Below, in pieces: positions 2,732 through 14,333 of a stretch of 64,000 nucleotides of DNA. Origin of the DNA: Gammaproteobacteria bacterium. GTDB taxonomy: Bacteria; Pseudomonadota; Gammaproteobacteria; Pseudomonadales; Cellvibrionaceae. Position 1 is the stretch's first letter, and each line of letters begins with the position of its first letter. The DNA lies in NCBI GenBank assembly GCA_004172865.1, contig SEBV01000012.1, positions 62,001 to 126,000 on the forward strand, written 5' to 3'. The notes beneath the pieces are model-generated. The model did no database searches. It was given only the letters and a program-made list of their open reading frames with translations, and was not told the origin of the DNA. A program made the position numbers and the translations under genes.

Positions 2732-2989
2732 ATGGAAAGTGTACGTCATTTACCCGAACAAAATCGCTTCGTTATTGATTACGAAGGTTCGCAAGGGGTA
2801 TTGCAGTATGCCTTGTCTAAACAAGGTTCAAGCACTACAGTAATTGATTTTAATAGCACCTTCGTGCCCCCCAATTTTCGCGGCAAAGGCGCTGCCGAAA
2901 AATTGGTGCGCGCCGGTATAAAGTGGGCAAAAGAGCAGGGCTACGAGTTGCACGCCAGCTGCTGGTATGCCGCTAAATTTATTCGTTAA
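2732..2989 (+). CDS. GNAT-like N-acetyltransferase (short YjdJ/Gcn5-related type)
   Basis: VPPNFRGKGAAEKLVRAGIKWAKEQG acetyl-CoA binding motif; GGAGG ribosome-binding site upstream of ATG 2732. Confidence 0.8.
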   Translation: MESVRHLPEQNRFVIDYEGSQGVLQYALSKQGSSTTVIDFNSTFVPPNFRGKGAAEKLVRAGIKWAKEQGYELHASCWYAAKFIR

Positions 2990-3011
2990 TTTAAGTCTAA
3001 AGGGATTTTTC

Positions 3012-3497
3012 ATGCAAAAAATTAAAACCAATGACGGTTTTACCTTGCTTGAACTGGTGGTTGTATTAGCCATTATGGCGATTCTTGCTACCATGGCAAT
3101 GCCGTCTCTTACGCCAAAATATACTCGCTCGCAAATTAATGAATCACTTGAGTTAATTAAGAACTTAAAAGAAAGTATTAATCTCTTTTATGTGGCGGAG
3201 AAAAAATTTCCTAGAAATAATCTTGAAGCTGGTATCCCAAAGCCCGAATTATTGATAGGAAATTATGTAGAGCGGATCGATTTTGTAACAGGCGCCTTTC
3301 ACATCACGTTTGGAAATAAAGCGACTGGCGTACTTAAAAATAAAGTGCTCTCTATTCGGCCAATAGTGGTCGTGGATTCTCCTGAAAGCCCAATCTCATG
3401 GGTATGTGGTAATTCAATCGTGCCGACAGGAATGGTCGCGGTTGGAGCCAATAGAACGGATATAGAGAGCCAGTATCTTCCAGTAGGTTGCAACTAG
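3012..3497 (+). CDS. Type IV pilin / pseudopilin-like protein
   Basis: Prepilin motif GFTLLELVVVLAIMAILATMAMPS; C-terminal cysteine pair (WVCGN...YLPVGC) typical of pilins. Confidence 0.85.
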   Translation: MQKIKTNDGFTLLELVVVLAIMAILATMAMPSLTPKYTRSQINESLELIKNLKESINLFYVAEKKFPRNNLEAGIPKPELLIGNYVERIDFVTGAFHITFGNKATGVLKNKVLSIRPIVVVDSPESPISWVCGNSIVPTGMVAVGANRTDIESQYLPVGCN

Positions 3498-3719: not shown

Positions 3720-4457
3720 ATGCAGAAACTATTTTCAATGTTAACGCTCATTCTCTCGGCCAACGCTTATTCGGCTGACTTAAATATCGCTGCGCAAATT
3801 TCGGAGGGTGGCGTGGCCTTAGTAGTTATACTTCTTCTTTCAATCTTGCTGGTTTCCGTAAGCGCCGAAAGATTTGTGAATTTTCGTGCTAAAAATATTT
3901 TTCCAGATGAGCTGATCACAGAAACAAAAACTTTATGGACAGCGGGTGATTTTGAAAAAATCCATGAGCGATTAAATTCAGAAAATAGCACTTTAGCTCG
4001 CGTTCTTGATTTCGTGGTGCTTAACAGACGGCAATCCTACGAATTTGTAAACTCGGGTGCTGCCGAAATTGCCTCGCTGGAATTGCGCCAGCAGTCACAA
4101 AAAGCTTATGCGTTAGCAATAGTTGCAACAGTTGCTCCCATAGTTGGTTTGCTTGGTACAGTTATTGGCATGATTGAAGCCTTCCACGTCATTGCTTTCT
4201 CCCAAGGTATGGGAAATCCAGCTTTGCTCGCCGGTGGAATTTCAAAAGCACTTATTAATACCGCTGCGGGTTTGAGCGTTGCTTTACCCGCGTTAGGTCT
4301 ACATCATTTTTTTAAAAATCGCACTGTTCAATTTGGTTTAGCACTTGAGCAGACATTGAATCAGCTTATGAGAGAGTGGTTTCTGACAGCGCCAACTCGT
4401 GCAACACCTGCTTCGCATTCATCATTTAATATCAGTCAGGTAGCTTATGCGGATTAA
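3720..4457 (+). CDS. MotA/TolQ/ExbB-type proton channel protein with signal-peptide-like N-terminus
   Basis: Conserved segment [21 protein letters not shown]...[22 protein letters not shown]-terminal [19 protein letters not shown]. Confidence 0.9.
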
Positions 4458-4872
4458 CGTGGGAGATGATGAACAACCTGAAATCGGTTTAATTGCGTTA
4501 ATCGATTGTATATTTTTCTTGCTCATGTTTTTCATGGTGGCAACTTCATTTAAACAGCAAGTATCAATGCAATCGCAAAGTCAGTTATCAGTAGTACTGC
4601 CGGAGGCCAGCGCCAGCTTAAATCAAGAAAGCTCTTCTGCAAAAATTATTAATATAGGGGTAGATAAAAAAGGAAGTTTATTTTTAAACGGAACATCGAT
4701 CACAGTAAAAAAATTGCAGGATTATTTGAGGGAAAGCGGTGCGGCTAGTAAGCAGACTCTAGTTGAAATTGAGGGGGATGAATCAGCTTCTTACAAAAAT
4801 ATTGTTAGCGTAATTGATATGTGTCAGTTTGAAGGATTAACCAATATAGCCTTAAACACCAGGACTAAATGA
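4447..4872 (+). CDS. ExbD/TolR family protein
   Basis: Single TM with conserved Asp ([20 protein letters not shown]); overlaps the end of the ExbB gene by 11 nt. Confidence 0.88.
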
Positions 4873-4873
4873 A

Positions 4874-6184
4874 ATGGCGATTAACTTGCTCACTACATTA
4901 AGGCAGGAGTCTGTGCAATATGGGATAAAAAAATATCCCTATTTCTGGTTTTCTATTTTATTTCATGTTGTCATTATCTATGTATTAAGTAATATCGTTT
5001 TAAAGCCTATTGTTGATACCAGGATTCATCAAAAAATCAAAGTTTCACTGAATAATACCTATCGAATGAGTATGCAGGAAAATGTAAAAGATATGGCAAA
5101 TACCCAGCAGCAACTCATGGAGACGTTAAGTGAAGATACAAAAAAAAATATACCGCTTGAGCCAATAGAAGAGAAAACTATTTCAAATGAGAAAGTAACT
5201 GCTAACGAATTGTTAGAGTTAGCACGTAAGATTTCAGAAAATATTCGCAAGATTGAACGTGAGCTGCGAGCGCAAGATCTCGAACGTGCAGTAACCATGT
5301 CGCACAATGAGGCATTAAAAACAGTAATGTCTTTAGAGCTCGCCATCCCGGAATATAGAGCTAACAGAATGCCCGGTGAGGAAAAAGTTAGGTCGGTTGA
5401 GCACATGGAGGAGGTCGCAAAAAATTCTTTGCGTCAGAGAGAATCTGTTATGGATAAACGAGGTCTCGGAGATCCGATGTCTCGGAAGACCGAAAAAAAT
5501 GATATGGTTGATCCTATTACGCAAGAGAGCGATGGCGCTATTGTTAAAGGAGCTACCAATTCAAATAATAAACTTGCACCGCAGAATTTAATTCACAGTA
5601 AAAATGATTTTGTGGATTTATGGTTGGATCATATTCCTCCGGTAAATCGCGAAAGCCCTCAAAAGATTGCAGGTCGTATTATAAAAGATGGTGCTCCCCA
5701 TGCTGACCGAATTTTTATTAACAGTTGGTATATCGCTGGACCTTTTCCAATCTCAGACAAAAAATATCCGCCGGAGTACGCCATTGATTTGGATGCAATC
5801 TATTACGGTAAAGAAAATAAAATTGTAGGCTGGCAATATGTGAGTAATTCACGATATCCACTGACACCACCGCCAAGTGATAAGGCAGGAATATTTTTTG
5901 GTTATACAGAAGTAATTTTGGATCACGCGCAGGATCTTTGGGTATGGGTTGGAGCAGATGATTTTGTAAGTCTTCAGTTGAATGACAAAGTTATTTGGAA
6001 TAGCACCGTATTTAATAAGAAATTTAATACAATTGCATACGAAAAAAATAATCCTGAGAAAAATAACTGGAACTTAACGGAATACAAACGTTTGGTTCAT
6101 TTTAATGCGGGGCGCAACACTTTCAAGTTTAAACTCACCAATTCAGACAGTACATCTTTCTTTTCACTAGTGCTCACAAAGTAA
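4874..6184 (+). CDS. Uncharacterised ExbBD-associated envelope protein: TonB-like N-terminal anchor, coiled-coil region, C-terminal beta-rich PA14/jelly-roll-like domain
   Basis: Starts 2 nt after exbD stop; N-terminal TM (YFWFSILFHVVIIYVLSNIVL), predicted helical middle, C-terminal NSWYIAGPFPIS...LWVWVGADDFVSLQLNDKVIWN; no recognisable TonB C-terminal domain. Confidence 0.7.
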   Translation: MAINLLTTLRQESVQYGIKKYPYFWFSILFHVVIIYVLSNIVLKPIVDTRIHQKIKVSLNNTYRMSMQENVKDMANTQQQLMETLSEDTKKNIPLEPIEEKTISNEKVTANELLELARKISENIRKIERELRAQDLERAVTMSHNEALKTVMSLELAIPEYRANRMPGEEKVRSVEHMEEVAKNSLRQRESVMDKRGLGDPMSRKTEKNDMVDPITQESDGAIVKGATNSNNKLAPQNLIHSKNDFVDLWLDHIPPVNRESPQKIAGRIIKDGAPHADRIFINSWYIAGPFPISDKKYPPEYAIDLDAIYYGKENKIVGWQYVSNSRYPLTPPPSDKAGIFFGYTEVILDHAQDLWVWVGADDFVSLQLNDKVIWNSTVFNKKFNTIAYEKNNPEKNNWNLTEYKRLVHFNAGRNTFKFKLTNSDSTSFFSLVLTK

Positions 6185-6313: not shown

Positions 6314-7351
6314 TTATGCCCAGCCGGTTAAAACAATTTTCCCAATAGTGCTTCCGGTTTCTATCTCGGCATGAGCTTTACGTAAATTTTCTGCATTGAT
6401 CGGCGTAAGCGTCTTACTCAGGCTGGTTTTTATTTTTTTCGCATCCACCAAATCAGCAATATAATTGAGTATGTTGTGTTGTTCGATCATATCGTGAGTT
6501 TTATACATGGAGCGTGTAAACATAAATTCCCATACAAAGTTGGCAGATTTTGATTTTAACGAATTGAGATCTATGGCAGCTTCAGGTTCTACAATTGAAC
6601 AGATGCTGCCTTGGGGGGCAATCAATTCGCTCATCGCTGGCCAGTGGCGCGCGGTGGTATTTAAACAAAAAATATAATCAACAAACTGAATCCCCTGATC
6701 GCGAATTTCTTTTACAAAATCTTGTTTGTGATTCACAACAATATCTGCCCCTAAAGAGCGACACCATTCAATCGATTCATCGCGCGATGCTGTGGCAATA
6801 ATCTTCAATCCGGCTATTTGTTTCGCGAGTTGAATTGCAATTGAACCCACACCTCCGGCACCCCCAATAATGAGTAACGTTTTACCGGCAGATTTTTCAT
6901 CGTTAATTGCCAACCTTTCAAATAAACCTTCCGCTGCGGTGATTCCCGTTAAGGGCAGGGCGGCCGCTTCTGCGTTAGTCAAACTTTTTGGTTTGCGGCC
7001 CACAATGCGTTCATCAATTAATTGAAACTCGCTGTTGCTACCGGGGCGGGTGATATCGCCTGCGTAATAAACTTCATCGCCTAGCGTAAATAATTCGACG
7101 TCATCTCCTACGGCCATGACTGTACCAACTGCATCCCAACCTAATACACGGTAATTTTCTTCAACCTTGGTTTTAGGTGCGCGCACCTTAGTATCGACAG
7201 GATTAACTGATATCGCCTGAATTTGGATCAGCAGATCGCGACCTTGGGCGATCGGTTTTGGCAGATTAATGTCGAGCAGTGAGTGATCATCACTGATCGG
7301 CAGGTAAGCTTTAAGGCCTACAGCTTTCATGGTGGTTGTTGACTGGCTCAT
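6314..7351 (-). CDS. Zinc-type alcohol dehydrogenase / quinone oxidoreductase family protein (MDR superfamily)
   Basis: GGAGGVGSIAIQLAKQ Rossmann motif and GWDAVGTVMAVGDDVELF MDR signature. Confidence 0.88.
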   Translation of the reverse strand: MSQSTTTMKAVGLKAYLPISDDHSLLDINLPKPIAQGRDLLIQIQAISVNPVDTKVRAPKTKVEENYRVLGWDAVGTVMAVGDDVELFTLGDEVYYAGDITRPGSNSEFQLIDERIVGRKPKSLTNAEAAALPLTGITAAEGLFERLAINDEKSAGKTLLIIGGAGGVGSIAIQLAKQIAGLKIIATASRDESIEWCRSLGADIVVNHKQDFVKEIRDQGIQFVDYIFCLNTTARHWPAMSELIAPQGSICSIVEPEAAIDLNSLKSKSANFVWEFMFTRSMYKTHDMIEQHNILNYIADLVDAKKIKTSLSKTLTPINAENLRKAHAEIETGSTIGKIVLTGWA

Positions 7352-7461
7352 AGGTTCTCCTGATTGATGATTAGTCAGCGCAGATTACAGTTGATTTATA
7401 TTTTTGATAATATCCTTAAAAATTGAATAACTATTAAAATTTATTTGATAAAGGTTTACTC

Positions 7462-8358
7462 ATGGCAAGAGCTTATTCTCTTCAAGACCTCGAATTACTG
7501 ATCCAAGTTGCAGAACGTGGAAATATGAGCGAAGTGGCTCGCCAACTCAACATGACAACTGCTGCTGTTTCGGCTGCCATAAAACGCCTTGAAGCAGCTT
7601 TGGTTGTTAGTTTATTCGAACGCACTACACGCAGTCTCCGCCTGAGTGCCGCGGGTGAAGCGTTTATTCCGCATCTACAGCAAGTATTAGGCGCTCTCGA
7701 TGTCGCAGAAAACGAATTGCGAAATTTGCAGACGCTGGTTGCCGGAGAAATTCGTATTGGGCTGCCATCGGACTTGGGGCGTAATCGCTTGAGCGGCATT
7801 TTGGACGAGTTTTTAGAGTTGTATTCGCAGGTGAAGTTCATCGTCCATGTCTCTGATCATATTCAGGATTTGTATCGCGATGAATTGGATATCGTCATCC
7901 GTTATGGCGACCCAAAGGACTCCAGTCTGATTGCCGCCAAGCTCTGCGACAACCGACGGGTTTTGGTTGCTTCAGGCCAATATGTGTCTAACCATAAACC
8001 ACTCCAAATGCTTACAGATCTATCTGAACATAACTGTTTGATGTTTTATCGCAATGATCGACCTTACAGTAAATGGGAATTTGAGCAGAATGGCCTGCCA
8101 ATTACGGTCAATGTTGTGGGCGATAGATCGGCGAATGATGGCGACCTAGTGAAGCGTTGGGCCATTGCAGGGAAGGGAATTGCTTATAAATCGAGGTTGG
8201 ATGTAGAACGGGAACTTGAATCAGGTGCGCTGATTGAATTACTGCCGGAGCAGTATATTGGGGCGTCGACACCAGTTTATTTGATTTACAAAGAGCGAAA
8301 ATACCAGCCTTACCGTTTAACGGCTTTGATTGCGTATTTGAAGGAAAAACTTATATAG
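7462..8358 (+). CDS. LysR family transcriptional regulator
   Basis: N-terminal HTH (MSEVARQLNMTTAAVSAAIKRLEAALVVSLFERTTRSLRLSAAGEAF); divergent from the 6314-7351 oxidoreductase. Confidence 0.93.
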   Translation: MARAYSLQDLELLIQVAERGNMSEVARQLNMTTAAVSAAIKRLEAALVVSLFERTTRSLRLSAAGEAFIPHLQQVLGALDVAENELRNLQTLVAGEIRIGLPSDLGRNRLSGILDEFLELYSQVKFIVHVSDHIQDLYRDELDIVIRYGDPKDSSLIAAKLCDNRRVLVASGQYVSNHKPLQMLTDLSEHNCLMFYRNDRPYSKWEFEQNGLPITVNVVGDRSANDGDLVKRWAIAGKGIAYKSRLDVERELESGALIELLPEQYIGASTPVYLIYKERKYQPYRLTALIAYLKEKLI

Positions 8359-8424
8359 AGGGCAGAATGATTGCGATTGAAGACTTACCGGTGCGCACTA
8401 AAGAAGTGGGCACCGGTAACGGCA

Positions 8425-8706
8425 TTATTCGTATTTGCAAAGGTAAGATGTTTCTACATTAGCAGTTACTTTGAAGCGTTGATTGGCTTCAACGATAAAC
8501 GTTTGGCCTTCTTTGAAAGTTTCAGCTGTTTCACTGCCTGGCAATACAACAGTCAAGCTACCGCTTACAACGGTCATGTATTCTTTTTGGCTGGTACCAA
8601 ACTCGTAGTCACCCGTAGCCATAACGCCGATAGTGGCAGGCAAAGTTTCGGTTTGGAAGGCGATAGATTTAACGGCGCCGTTGAAGTATTCGTTTACTTT
8701 AAACAT
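8425..8706 (-). CDS. ppnP: Pyrimidine/purine nucleoside phosphorylase PpnP (DUF1255 family)
   Basis: [53 protein letters not shown]... about 93 aa; internal ATG at 8706 fits the family length. Confidence 0.9.
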
Positions 8707-8801
8707 GGAGGATCTCCGCCAAAGGGTTATGGGCTTGGCTAATACAAACAGGCCAATGACTTTAGAGCTACAACCGTAGAGTTGTAAAACTTGCACACAT
8801 A

Positions 8802-8832
8802 AAAAAGGCCGCATTTTCATGCAGCCTTTCTT
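8802..8832 (-). terminator. Rho-independent terminator downstream of tRNA-Asn
   Basis: Minus strand reads AAAGGCTGCATGAAAATGCGGCCTTTTTT: stem-loop followed by T-tract. Confidence 0.7.
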
Positions 8833-8841
8833 ACTTAAATT

Positions 8842-8917
8842 TGGCTCCGCTTGCTGGACTCGAACCAGCGACCCAATGATTAACAGTCATTTGCTCTACC
8901 GACTGAGCTAAAGCGGA
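8842..8917 (-). tRNA. tRNA-Asn (GTT)
   Basis: Minus strand TCCGCTTTAGCTCAGTCGGTAGAGCAAATGACTGTTAATCATTGGGTCGCTGGTTCGAGTCCAGCAAGCGGAGCCA; cloverleaf, encoded CCA, anticodon GTT. Confidence 0.97.
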
Positions 8918-9067
8918 ACGGTGACTTCCTGCGAGGAAGTGGTGCGCATAATATAGATGGGGTTAGGCTTGGTCAACCCTTTTTTCTAAAAAAATCATCA
9001 ATATAGCGACGCTTGGTTAATAAGTCTGCAGCATGTAAACCACGTGTACAGATTGCAGATTAGTTAA

Positions 9068-10111
9068 CTAATTTTTGCGCAACTCAATTACTTTAAAACT
9101 TTTATTTTGTGCGATTAAATTAATGTGCTGGAAGAAAGGTAATGCCTTTTTTTCCAGCGCAATAAATTGATTGACTACAAAATAAGCAACACCATTTTCG
9201 GCGAGTAATTTTTGCGCGTTTCGTAAAAACTTATCTGTTAAATCGCCATCAACACTGAAACCTTGATGAAACGGCGGGTTACATAAAATTAGATCGAAGC
9301 AACGTGGTAATTGTTCGCCGGCATCGCTCGCTGCAACATCCGCTGTTATTTTTAATTGATCACAATTTGCTTTTGCGGTGAAAAGCGCTGCAGCATTGTT
9401 ATCGGTAAGTGTTCGATTTTTTATCGATAAATGTTGGCTTGCAATTGTTAAGTAACCGTAACCGCAACCTAAATCCAGGCAATGTTCAAACGATTGTTGA
9501 GACAATATCGGTGCGACTTCTGTGATTAAAAATTCACTACCTTGATCTACTTTACTCCAACCAAATTGACCTGGTTTGCTGACGACAGGCGTGTTATTAA
9601 TTTGCAGGCATTCACGTAGCTCGTTGTAATTTTCATCATTTAATAATTCGCCTTTGACACTGCCTTTGTGTAACTGACTTGAATAGCTCATTCCATCTTT
9701 CTGAATATTTCTTGCGCAGCCAAATAATACACAGGCTTTTTCAATGTAAGTTTTCACGCCTTCATTTTTTTGTCCGCTAATCCACAGCACACCATTTGGC
9801 TTAAGTACACGTTGTGCTTGATTAATTAAATGATGAACAACTGCTTTCTCTTTTGAAATGCGATAAAAAATATGATCAACGCTATTGTCAGCGGTTTCCG
9901 CTAAATCAAAATCGTTAAAGGTTGTACTAAACCCTAATTGTTTTGCGTTCTCGGCAATATCCCAACGGTTGGTGATAAAGGCTGGTTTCTGCGGCCACTT
10001 CTTCGCATCAGGGAGTTGATTCAATACATTTTCATCGCAAAGCCAAATACTTTGCGCGCTGGCATGTGTGTAAATCTGTTGCAGTAGCCAAGTTGTGGGA
10101 GCGTCAGTCAT
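9068..10111 (-). CDS. rRNA (guanine-N2) methyltransferase, RsmC/RlmG family
   Basis: Motifs CLDLGCGYGYLTIA and LILCNPPFHQGF; duplicated methyltransferase architecture. Confidence 0.85.
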   Translation of the reverse strand: MTDAPTTWLLQQIYTHASAQSIWLCDENVLNQLPDAKKWPQKPAFITNRWDIAENAKQLGFSTTFNDFDLAETADNSVDHIFYRISKEKAVVHHLINQAQRVLKPNGVLWISGQKNEGVKTYIEKACVLFGCARNIQKDGMSYSSQLHKGSVKGELLNDENYNELRECLQINNTPVVSKPGQFGWSKVDQGSEFLITEVAPILSQQSFEHCLDLGCGYGYLTIASQHLSIKNRTLTDNNAAALFTAKANCDQLKITADVAASDAGEQLPRCFDLILCNPPFHQGFSVDGDLTDKFLRNAQKLLAENGVAYFVVNQFIALEKKALPFFQHINLIAQNKSFKVIELRKN

Positions 10112-13112: not shown

Positions 13113-14333
13113 TCAATAGTTGGTGATGCCTGAGCTGGTGCAGCTTGCCCATTTACCGATACAAATATCACCGGCATTTTTCAAACTACTATTAGTAATT
13201 TTAGCTGTGCTGATCGAGCTGTCGGTACGGAAAATACCTTCGCTCATGTTGGATATCTGACATTTATCCACACTCACTCCGATCTTGAAAGTGGTACCAC
13301 CATTTTGACGCAGGAATTTGCCCATGCTGTCCACTACACAGTTGGAAATAGTGATGGTTGAGGCTGCGTTTACTTGGAAGAACTTATCGCTACCGGCAAA
13401 TGCAGAAATGTTTTTGATATTGATGGTTCCAGATTCCTTAACCGTCATCGCATCTTCACCAACATTGGTCCAACGGATATTGTCTATGGTGCCGCTGCCG
13501 TAAAAATGAATGCCGTCGGCGCCGTTGCTACCTAAAATAACGTTCTTCAAGGTCGCACCGTTTTCTACAATAAACACCGGTTTTTGGCCCTCTGCCTGAC
13601 TACCATCACCCAAAGCGCTGGTGGCGGTAAATACTTTACATCCTCCGTCATAAGTACCGCTGCTCACCCTAATGGTCGAGCTAACGCTTACTGAGCCGTT
13701 TGCAGTACAGGTCGCGCCCGTGATGCTGCCACTATCGCCGCCTCCGCTACTGCTACCGCTCGGTTTTCCGGATGCTGCATTCGAGCTATACCAAACACCA
13801 TCCGTCAATCGGTATTTGACCCAAAAATAGTAGGTGCTGCCGTTGGTCAATCCGGTTGCGGTGTAGCTCGTTGTTCCAGCGCTCAAACTGGCAATGCGCA
13901 CGCGTCCCGCGGGATCAGAATCTGTGTCCTGATAAACTTCAAGAGCGTTTATATTGCTTGGATTAGACCAACTTAAAGACACACTTCCATTTCCAGCACT
14001 GGTGTTCACAGTCAAACTTCCACCGGAAGATTGAGCGGATGAAGAACTTCCTCCTCCAGTCCCTGAAGCACTTTTAGGAATGGAGCATTCCTTGTTTGAC
14101 TTGGACGGGATTGGATCTGATCCGAAAGTCGCAACGGAACAGGAGAAGGAGCCGCTCAGTATTTTATAAACAAACTGATCAGAAGCACCAAATGCAACGT
14201 TTGTGCTTGAGCTTACAGAACATGTTTCACCAGATTTACAAATGGTGACATATCCATCAGGGCGGTTAGAAGCGGCGAGCGCGCTCGATGCGCAGCCGAG
14301 TAAAGCTGAGGCAAAAATTATTTTCTCTAGCAT
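13113..14333 (-). CDS. Secreted modular pectate lyase (PL3-like catalytic domain, fibronectin type III module, N-terminal accessory domain)
   Basis: Signal peptide; Ser/Gly linkers; Fn3 segment (NGSVSLSWSNPSNINALEVYQ...YTATGLTNGSTYYFWVKYR); catalytic part TVKESGTINIKNISAFAGSDKFFQVNAASTITISNCVVDSMGKFLRQNGG typical of PL3. Confidence 0.85.
   Translation of the reverse strand: MLEKIIFASALLGCASSALAASNRPDGYVTICKSGETCSVSSSTNVAFGASDQFVYKILSGSFSCSVATFGSDPIPSKSNKECSIPKSASGTGGGSSSSAQSSGGSLTVNTSAGNGSVSLSWSNPSNINALEVYQDTDSDPAGRVRIASLSAGTTSYTATGLTNGSTYYFWVKYRLTDGVWYSSNAASGKPSGSSSGGGDSGSITGATCTANGSVSVSSTIRVSSGTYDGGCKVFTATSALGDGSQAEGQKPVFIVENGATLKNVILGSNGADGIHFYGSGTIDNIRWTNVGEDAMTVKESGTINIKNISAFAGSDKFFQVNAASTITISNCVVDSMGKFLRQNGGTTFKIGVSVDKCQISNMSEGIFRTDSSISTAKITNSSLKNAGDICIGKWASCTSSGITNY

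Follow-up and report, generated by a model that had tools for sequence, protein, structure and literature searches.

Which kind of target could an ExbB–ExbD motor pull on when the gene that follows exbD does not encode a normal TonB? The question is raised by three genes in a 64-kb stretch of DNA (the window). This stretch lies on contig C38; the draft genome measures 5.25 Mb, and its closest relatives are Cellvibrio-like. A first-pass annotation, made from the letters of the window, had claimed a tight exbB–exbD–X array with an 11-nt overlap and tiny exbD/X spacing, and had proposed that X is a non-TonB partner of the motor, which would work on a glycan or peptidoglycan ligand in place of a receptor plug.

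The exbB–exbD–X trio

Analysis of the open reading frames of the window verified these coordinates. The three genes are contiguous on one strand; exbB and exbD overlap by 11 nt and a single nucleotide intervenes between exbD and X:

3720–4457 (+): exbB-like proton-channel subunit, 245 aa, ATG at 3720, signal-peptide-like N-terminus
3840–3842 (+): ExbB Ser41 in TM1, aligned with TolQ Ser28 and E. coli ExbB Ser34
4447–4872 (+): exbD-like subunit, 141 aa, PF02472, aligned to the solved ExbD 7ajq
4504–4506 (+): ExbD Asp20, candidate proton-carrying aspartate in the motif LIDCIFF, by alignment with ExbD 7ajq
4874–6184 (+): gene X, encoding a force-transducer-like protein of 436 aa that matches neither TonB_C nor any other family

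ExbB matches PF01618 (E=1.4e-24; cut-off 22.9 bits), which identifies a MotA_ExbB domain, and its conserved GLLGT and NTAAG motifs provide the pore threonines. Its sequence relatives in the PDB are TolQ and ExbB chains, and the signal-peptide-like N-terminus that had been claimed for it is present. ExbD matches PF02472 (E=6.8e-26) and has the membrane aspartate expected of the ExbD/TolR family.

The genome as a whole yields 12 matches to MotA/TolQ/ExbB, many to TonB_C and 72 to receptor plugs, so X is an addition to the ordinary Ton and Tol machinery and not a replacement for it. The same inventory implies a high demand for transducers, which would suit a reading of X as an ordinary, fast-evolving TonB for the cell's many TonB-dependent receptors. 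The window itself contains neither a TonB_C match nor a receptor plug match, in agreement with the earlier claim that no TonB-dependent receptor is nearby. Just beyond the window edge, on the opposite strand, the nearest plug is encoded some 6.3 kb upstream of exbB.

Anatomy of X

Four segments can be delineated in X:

4937–4999 (+): membrane helix, residues 22–42, with S27-x3-H31-x6-L38, the SHL part of the SHLS motif
5018–5461 (+): periplasmic helical rod, residues 49–196, block pLDDT mostly 80–92 in the full-length model
5468–5632 (+): disordered linker, residues 199–253, pLDDT about 30–50 in the full-length model
5636–6181 (+): C-terminal PA14/jelly-roll-like beta domain, residues 255–436, from the predicted fold, weak PA14 matches and alignment

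Helix 22–42, with S27 and H31 invariant among X proteins, is the single N-terminal membrane segment that had been placed at the anchor position of TonB and TolA. It is followed in the full-length model by helices (49–196), disorder (199–253) and the beta domain (264–435), with no proline-rich periplasmic linker of the TonB type. Searches with X gave nothing close to a curated cut-off in Pfam or NCBIfam, nothing in PHROGs and no meaningful sequence match in the PDB; in particular, TonB_C (PF03544) was detected by neither Pfam nor NCBIfam. A profile search of the PDB did hit designed and PQQ propeller proteins, but these were rejected as relatives, as no single stretch passes and the hits consist of tiny scores repeated.

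The C-terminal domain and its candidate ligand site

When the beta domain was modelled alone with 52 relatives, a confident all-beta fold was predicted (pLDDT 87.7, pTM 0.86). Foldseek searches of the PDB with this model gave matches at a probability of about 1.00, yet with modest TM-scores of 0.35–0.46, including enzymes of GH2 and GH3 that carry jelly-roll or PA14 modules, the PA14 lectins Cea1A and Epa1A, and CBM35 modules. A structure search of a viral library returned PA14 and GLEYA domains, and carbohydrate enzymes and lectins make up most of the fold neighbours. In profile searches, 6 of the 52 members match PF07691 (PA14) weakly, the best at E=0.0084 and none reaching the gathering score, while a wider relative within a secreted serine hydrolase from KSB1 gives a PA14 match at 1.9e-4. 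These structural and sub-threshold matches place the domain near the PA14 superfamily without making it a formal member, and they uphold the first-pass description of a PA14/jelly-roll-like domain. A divergent TonB/TolA C-terminal domain, for which a structural search had been set beforehand as a test, did not emerge: no TonB/TolA fold was found among the top structural matches listed, and a degenerate TonB/TolA domain was rejected as the identity of the X C-terminus because the predicted fold differs. The missing TonB_C match and the predicted all-beta fold thus bear out the claimed absence of a normal TonB C-terminus.

The 52-member alignment also revealed conserved positions that could bind a ligand:

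5957–5962 (+): Asp362–Asp363, candidate PA14-type calcium/glycan-binding DcisD pair
6140–6142 (+): Asn423, candidate second calcium-loop Asn

All 52 members share D363 and Asn423, and conservation of D362 reaches at least 90%; both the pair and the asparagine sit at predicted strand ends. In PA14 lectins, calcium is held by two adjacent cis aspartates and an Asn from a later loop, and sugar hydroxyls are bound through this calcium (PMC8092209, PMC6218569). Asn423 lies 60 residues past the Asp pair, a spacing that resembles that of Cea1A (Asp pair 191–192, Asn 257; PMC6218569). Conservation of these PA14-type positions makes a glycan the likeliest ligand of the beta domain, as far as sequence and predicted fold can indicate. 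Two observations weigh against this reading: the modest TM-scores, and the presence of similar GxDD motifs in related domains of secreted PVC proteins and enzymes.

Distribution and modularity of the trio

X itself was found in 9 of the 145 genomes of its family, and a single-sequence search of genome contigs with X found nothing, so a profile of the beta domain was required. Searching one-genome-per-species data with this profile, and with no motor gene in the query, revealed 47 loci in Cellvibrionaceae, Burkholderiales (Massilia, Duganella, Rugamonas, Roseateles, Rubrivivax), PVC bacteria (Lentisphaerae, Kiritimatiellae, Verrucomicrobia, Planctomycetes), KSB1 and unplaced bins, a collection that is not a sample for estimating prevalence. 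When all open frames were searched, exbB and exbD lay directly upstream of the beta-domain gene at 43 of the 47 loci. The array is not a chance arrangement, as it recurs among loci that were collected without reference to motor genes. The exceptions include two loci whose contigs start within the X gene (L066 and L076) and one, L068, that has exbD but no exbB because its contig begins inside exbD. This leaves L047 as the only real lone beta domain (7803–8522), a protein with a hydrophobic N-terminus but without S-x3-H, exbB or exbD, with a gene for an FtsX/MacB-like permease on one side and one for a TonB-dependent-receptor-like protein on the other.

All-against-all comparison of the neighbours found no other gene family common to the loci across phyla, thus indicating that the exbB–exbD–X trio is the unit. 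The conserved neighbourhood that the first-pass annotation had suggested looking for therefore exists, and the treatment of the cassette as a local oddity gives way to a cross-phylum family. In the tree of the trio, sequences from Cellvibrio and Burkholderiales interleave (L039 and L040 fall beside L041, L043 and L053 at a weak node, 0.11), and L046 stands apart from the other Burkholderiales; the interleaving suggests horizontal exchange between the two groups.

X is not always a single polypeptide. At six loci (L054, L058, L061, L062, L064 and L074) it is split into two proteins: an anchor of 350–465 aa, encoded between exbD and the beta-domain gene, which combines the S-x3-H helix with a long coil and lacks the beta domain, and a beta-domain protein with its own signal-like start. 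This pattern of fusion and fission supports the existence of two cooperating modules. Tandem pairs of beta-domain genes occur at L036, L037, L038, L042, L064, L065, L068 and L079. The reading of X as a fast-evolving ordinary TonB is largely refuted by the different predicted fold of the C-terminal domain; the retention of this domain across phyla as a family of its own and its occurrence as a separate polypeptide in several genomes also speak against that reading, to which we give very little credence.

Weaker relatives of the domain were also observed. Among 200 Planctomycetota genomes, 144 have at least a weak beta-domain match, mostly to weaker relatives in long proteins; these were not counted as this system, the matches are again no basis for estimating prevalence, and only about eight of the genomes hold matches that are X-type by score and frame length. 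The beta domain thus looks like a common module without its own Pfam entry. The genome that contains L063 (G798) has 17–18 matches, many to only the second half of the domain in frames of about 50–130 aa, and three of them contain an internal TAG. This surplus could reflect local expansion, decay or fragmentation.

Probable coupling of X to the motor

The SHLS motif of transducer membrane helices has a Ser-His part that is best conserved and forms the contacts with the motor, and the spacing used here is taken from the same source (PMC12215075). X contains S27, H31 and L38 of this helix; the final Ser is replaced by Val42. Within residues 1–112, S27 and H31 are the sole invariant residues among 10 divergent Cellvibrionaceae X proteins with identities down to 23%, and both are also invariant in 20 aligned X proteins. 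S-x3-H is present across phyla in nearly every anchor, whether fused or split, and in none of 49 other Cellvibrio-locus proteins with an N-terminal hydrophobic segment, a control set from which X proteins were left out. The motif is the strongest sign that X would be driven by the motor; the first-pass annotation had noted neither this motif nor the split form nor the spread across phyla. A D-box-like (IKVSL-like) stretch behind the membrane helix can be recognized by eye only in the closest Cellvibrio set.

The motor side varies with the anchor. Ser28 of TolQ, or Ser34 of E. coli ExbB, touches the Ser-His pair of the transducer (PMC12215075), and the equivalent TM1 serine is retained in ExbB wherever the anchor has the histidine. 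At five loci (L067, L071, L075, L077 and L078) it is replaced by Gly; these loci have two exbD genes each and an anchor without S-x3-H. As they form one clade in the trio tree (support 1.00), loss of S-x3-H and the Ser-to-Gly exchange represent a single correlated evolutionary change, which is suggestive but not proof. Where E. coli ExbB/TolQ has a Trp in contact with Ser-His, all of these trio ExbBs have an aliphatic residue, a real difference from Ton and Tol.

The retained motif also bears on whether the beta domain could be a passive accessory, with coupling that matters solely for anchoring or assembly. Related domains do serve as accessory modules of secreted PVC enzymes, but the strict link to exbB and exbD and the maintenance of the motor-binding motif argue for an energized function, and we find a purely passive role hard to credit. 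A further possibility is that X is a ligand-sensing gate instead of a puller, such that binding at the beta domain would change the seating of X on ExbB and regulate proton flow or signalling. A network from the Ser-His of TonB/TolA to ExbB Pro190 has been proposed as a motor gate (PMC12215075), and the long disordered linker of X could restrict direct force transfer. However, helical rods of the TolA type serve force transfer, and the all-against-all comparison found no regulator conserved beside the trio; gating is thus considered improbable.

Neighbouring genes and the nature of the target

Glycan-active enzymes are encoded near some trios, including GH95 (L028 and L029), GH10 (near L031), GH43, GH20, GH16, GH3 and others, and of 10 adjacent genes inspected, six, spread over five loci, encode glycoside hydrolases or related proteins; these genes were picked by eye with no null model, so the neighbourhood carries little weight. 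Other genes seen in the window include one for a secreted pectate lyase with a fibronectin type III domain at 13113–14333 (−) (PF03211, 1.1e-45). A type IV pilin-like gene (2967–3497; PF00114, 2.1e-12) immediately precedes exbB and shares its strand, an adjacency restricted among trio loci to the window-type Cellvibrio loci L024–L027. These loci also conserve, beside rimO, a gene for a DUF748 and OmpA-like protein (469–2697 in the window; PF05359, 3.1e-147).

The main rival to a glycan is a protein target, on account of L031, where a gene for an 827-aa receptor-like outer-membrane protein with a carboxypeptidase-regulatory domain and a weak Plug match (7176–9659, −) follows X on the same strand after about 70 nt. 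With the same motor and anchor, the beta domain could grip an outer-membrane or periplasmic protein such as a receptor or barrel; X would then be a counterpart of TonB whose grip has been exchanged. Protein binding is within the repertoire of PA14-like sandwiches. The targets of TonB and TolA are likewise proteins (PMC12204202). A neighbour of this type is missing from the closest relative, L032, and from every other locus, however, and the prevalence of carbohydrate enzymes and lectins among the fold neighbours also speaks against this alternative, which we regard as unlikely, though the most serious of those considered.

Proposed mechanism

A mechanism is proposed in which ExbB and ExbD, judged by their families, would form a proton-powered motor, and the membrane helix of X would dock on its side through the Ser-His pair used by TonB and TolA. 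Movement of the motor would pass along the helical periplasmic rod and flexible linker seen in the model to the beta domain, which would take hold of a target in the periplasm or on the inner side of the outer membrane, most likely a glycan (for example peptidoglycan or an outer-membrane saccharide) bound at the putative calcium-dependent Asp-Asp/Asn site. In some lineages the anchor with its rod and the beta domain are separate proteins, which presumably assemble.

Force transduction by X is well supported by its anatomy; the proton-driven force itself, the physical assembly of the trio, glycan binding and any physiological role are inferred. On balance, we favour the reading that the trio is a self-contained, proton-driven envelope force transducer with X gripping a target, most likely a glycan, through this site. 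Put forward more tentatively is the broader proposal of a third, as yet undescribed class of proton-driven envelope machine in which ExbBD pulls glycans via a lectin-like domain; such machines would be widespread among PVC bacteria and would have passed between Cellvibrio and Burkholderiales. Two pulling systems of the ExbBD/TolQR type are established (Ton and Tol) and one was predicted in 2025 (vWA transducers). A third type of grip, lectin-like in its predicted fold and split in some natural cases, would imply that motor plus anchor is a modular platform, and that cells may spend membrane energy pulling on targets besides the usual outer-membrane receptors. It also offers a testable route to other uses of the proton gradient at the outer envelope, foremost in PVC bacteria, where little is known of envelope energetics.

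Comparison with known systems

The trio shares its motor subunits and the S-x3-H-x6-L membrane helix with TonB–ExbB–ExbD, but X lacks the TonB_C domain, the proline-rich linker and a conserved receptor. With TolA–TolQ–TolR it shares motor subunits, a Ser-His anchor and a helical periplasmic part (TolA domain II); X differs in lacking TolA domain III, and there are no Tol-Pal genes at the locus. It is on another contig, C30, that the cell has its TolQ-type gene and a TolA-like match to TonB_C. The beta domain resembles the PA14 lectin domains of MpPA14, Cea1A and Flo5 in predicted fold class (a beta sandwich), the adjacent Asp-Asp and the later Asn, whereas it falls below Pfam thresholds, is membrane-anchored and is linked to a motor.

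In the open literature searched, with preprints and subscription papers outside its scope, we found no prior description of an ExbBD motor with a PA14-like partner, and no homologue characterized as a conventional TonB partner, the outcome that the first-pass annotation had named as refuting its proposal. That proposal of a non-TonB partner is supported by the combination in X of a PA14/jelly-roll-like domain with a TonB/TolA-type anchor; its accompanying idea, of a glycan or peptidoglycan taking the place of a receptor plug, is more tentative. The nearest published precedent is provided by the vWA force transducers (Williams-Jones et al. 2025; PMC12204202), in whose main text PA14, jelly-roll and lectin domains, Cellvibrio and Massilia are absent. 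Both systems have an SHLS-type membrane helix, a linker, a non-TonB globular domain and adjacent motor genes (TolQ/TolR-like for vWA), and both occur in Proteobacteria and PVC bacteria. They differ in that the vWA transducers end in a von Willebrand A fold and have a co-occurring TPR gene, whereas X ends in a predicted PA14-like beta sandwich and not in a vWA domain, its trio has no conserved TPR gene, and split and tandem forms are a feature of the X system. As the nearest precedent thus carries a different end domain and no earlier description was found, the best reading is that, next to TonB/TolA and the vWA transducers, X adds a third class of force transducer to those serving 5:2 proton motors.
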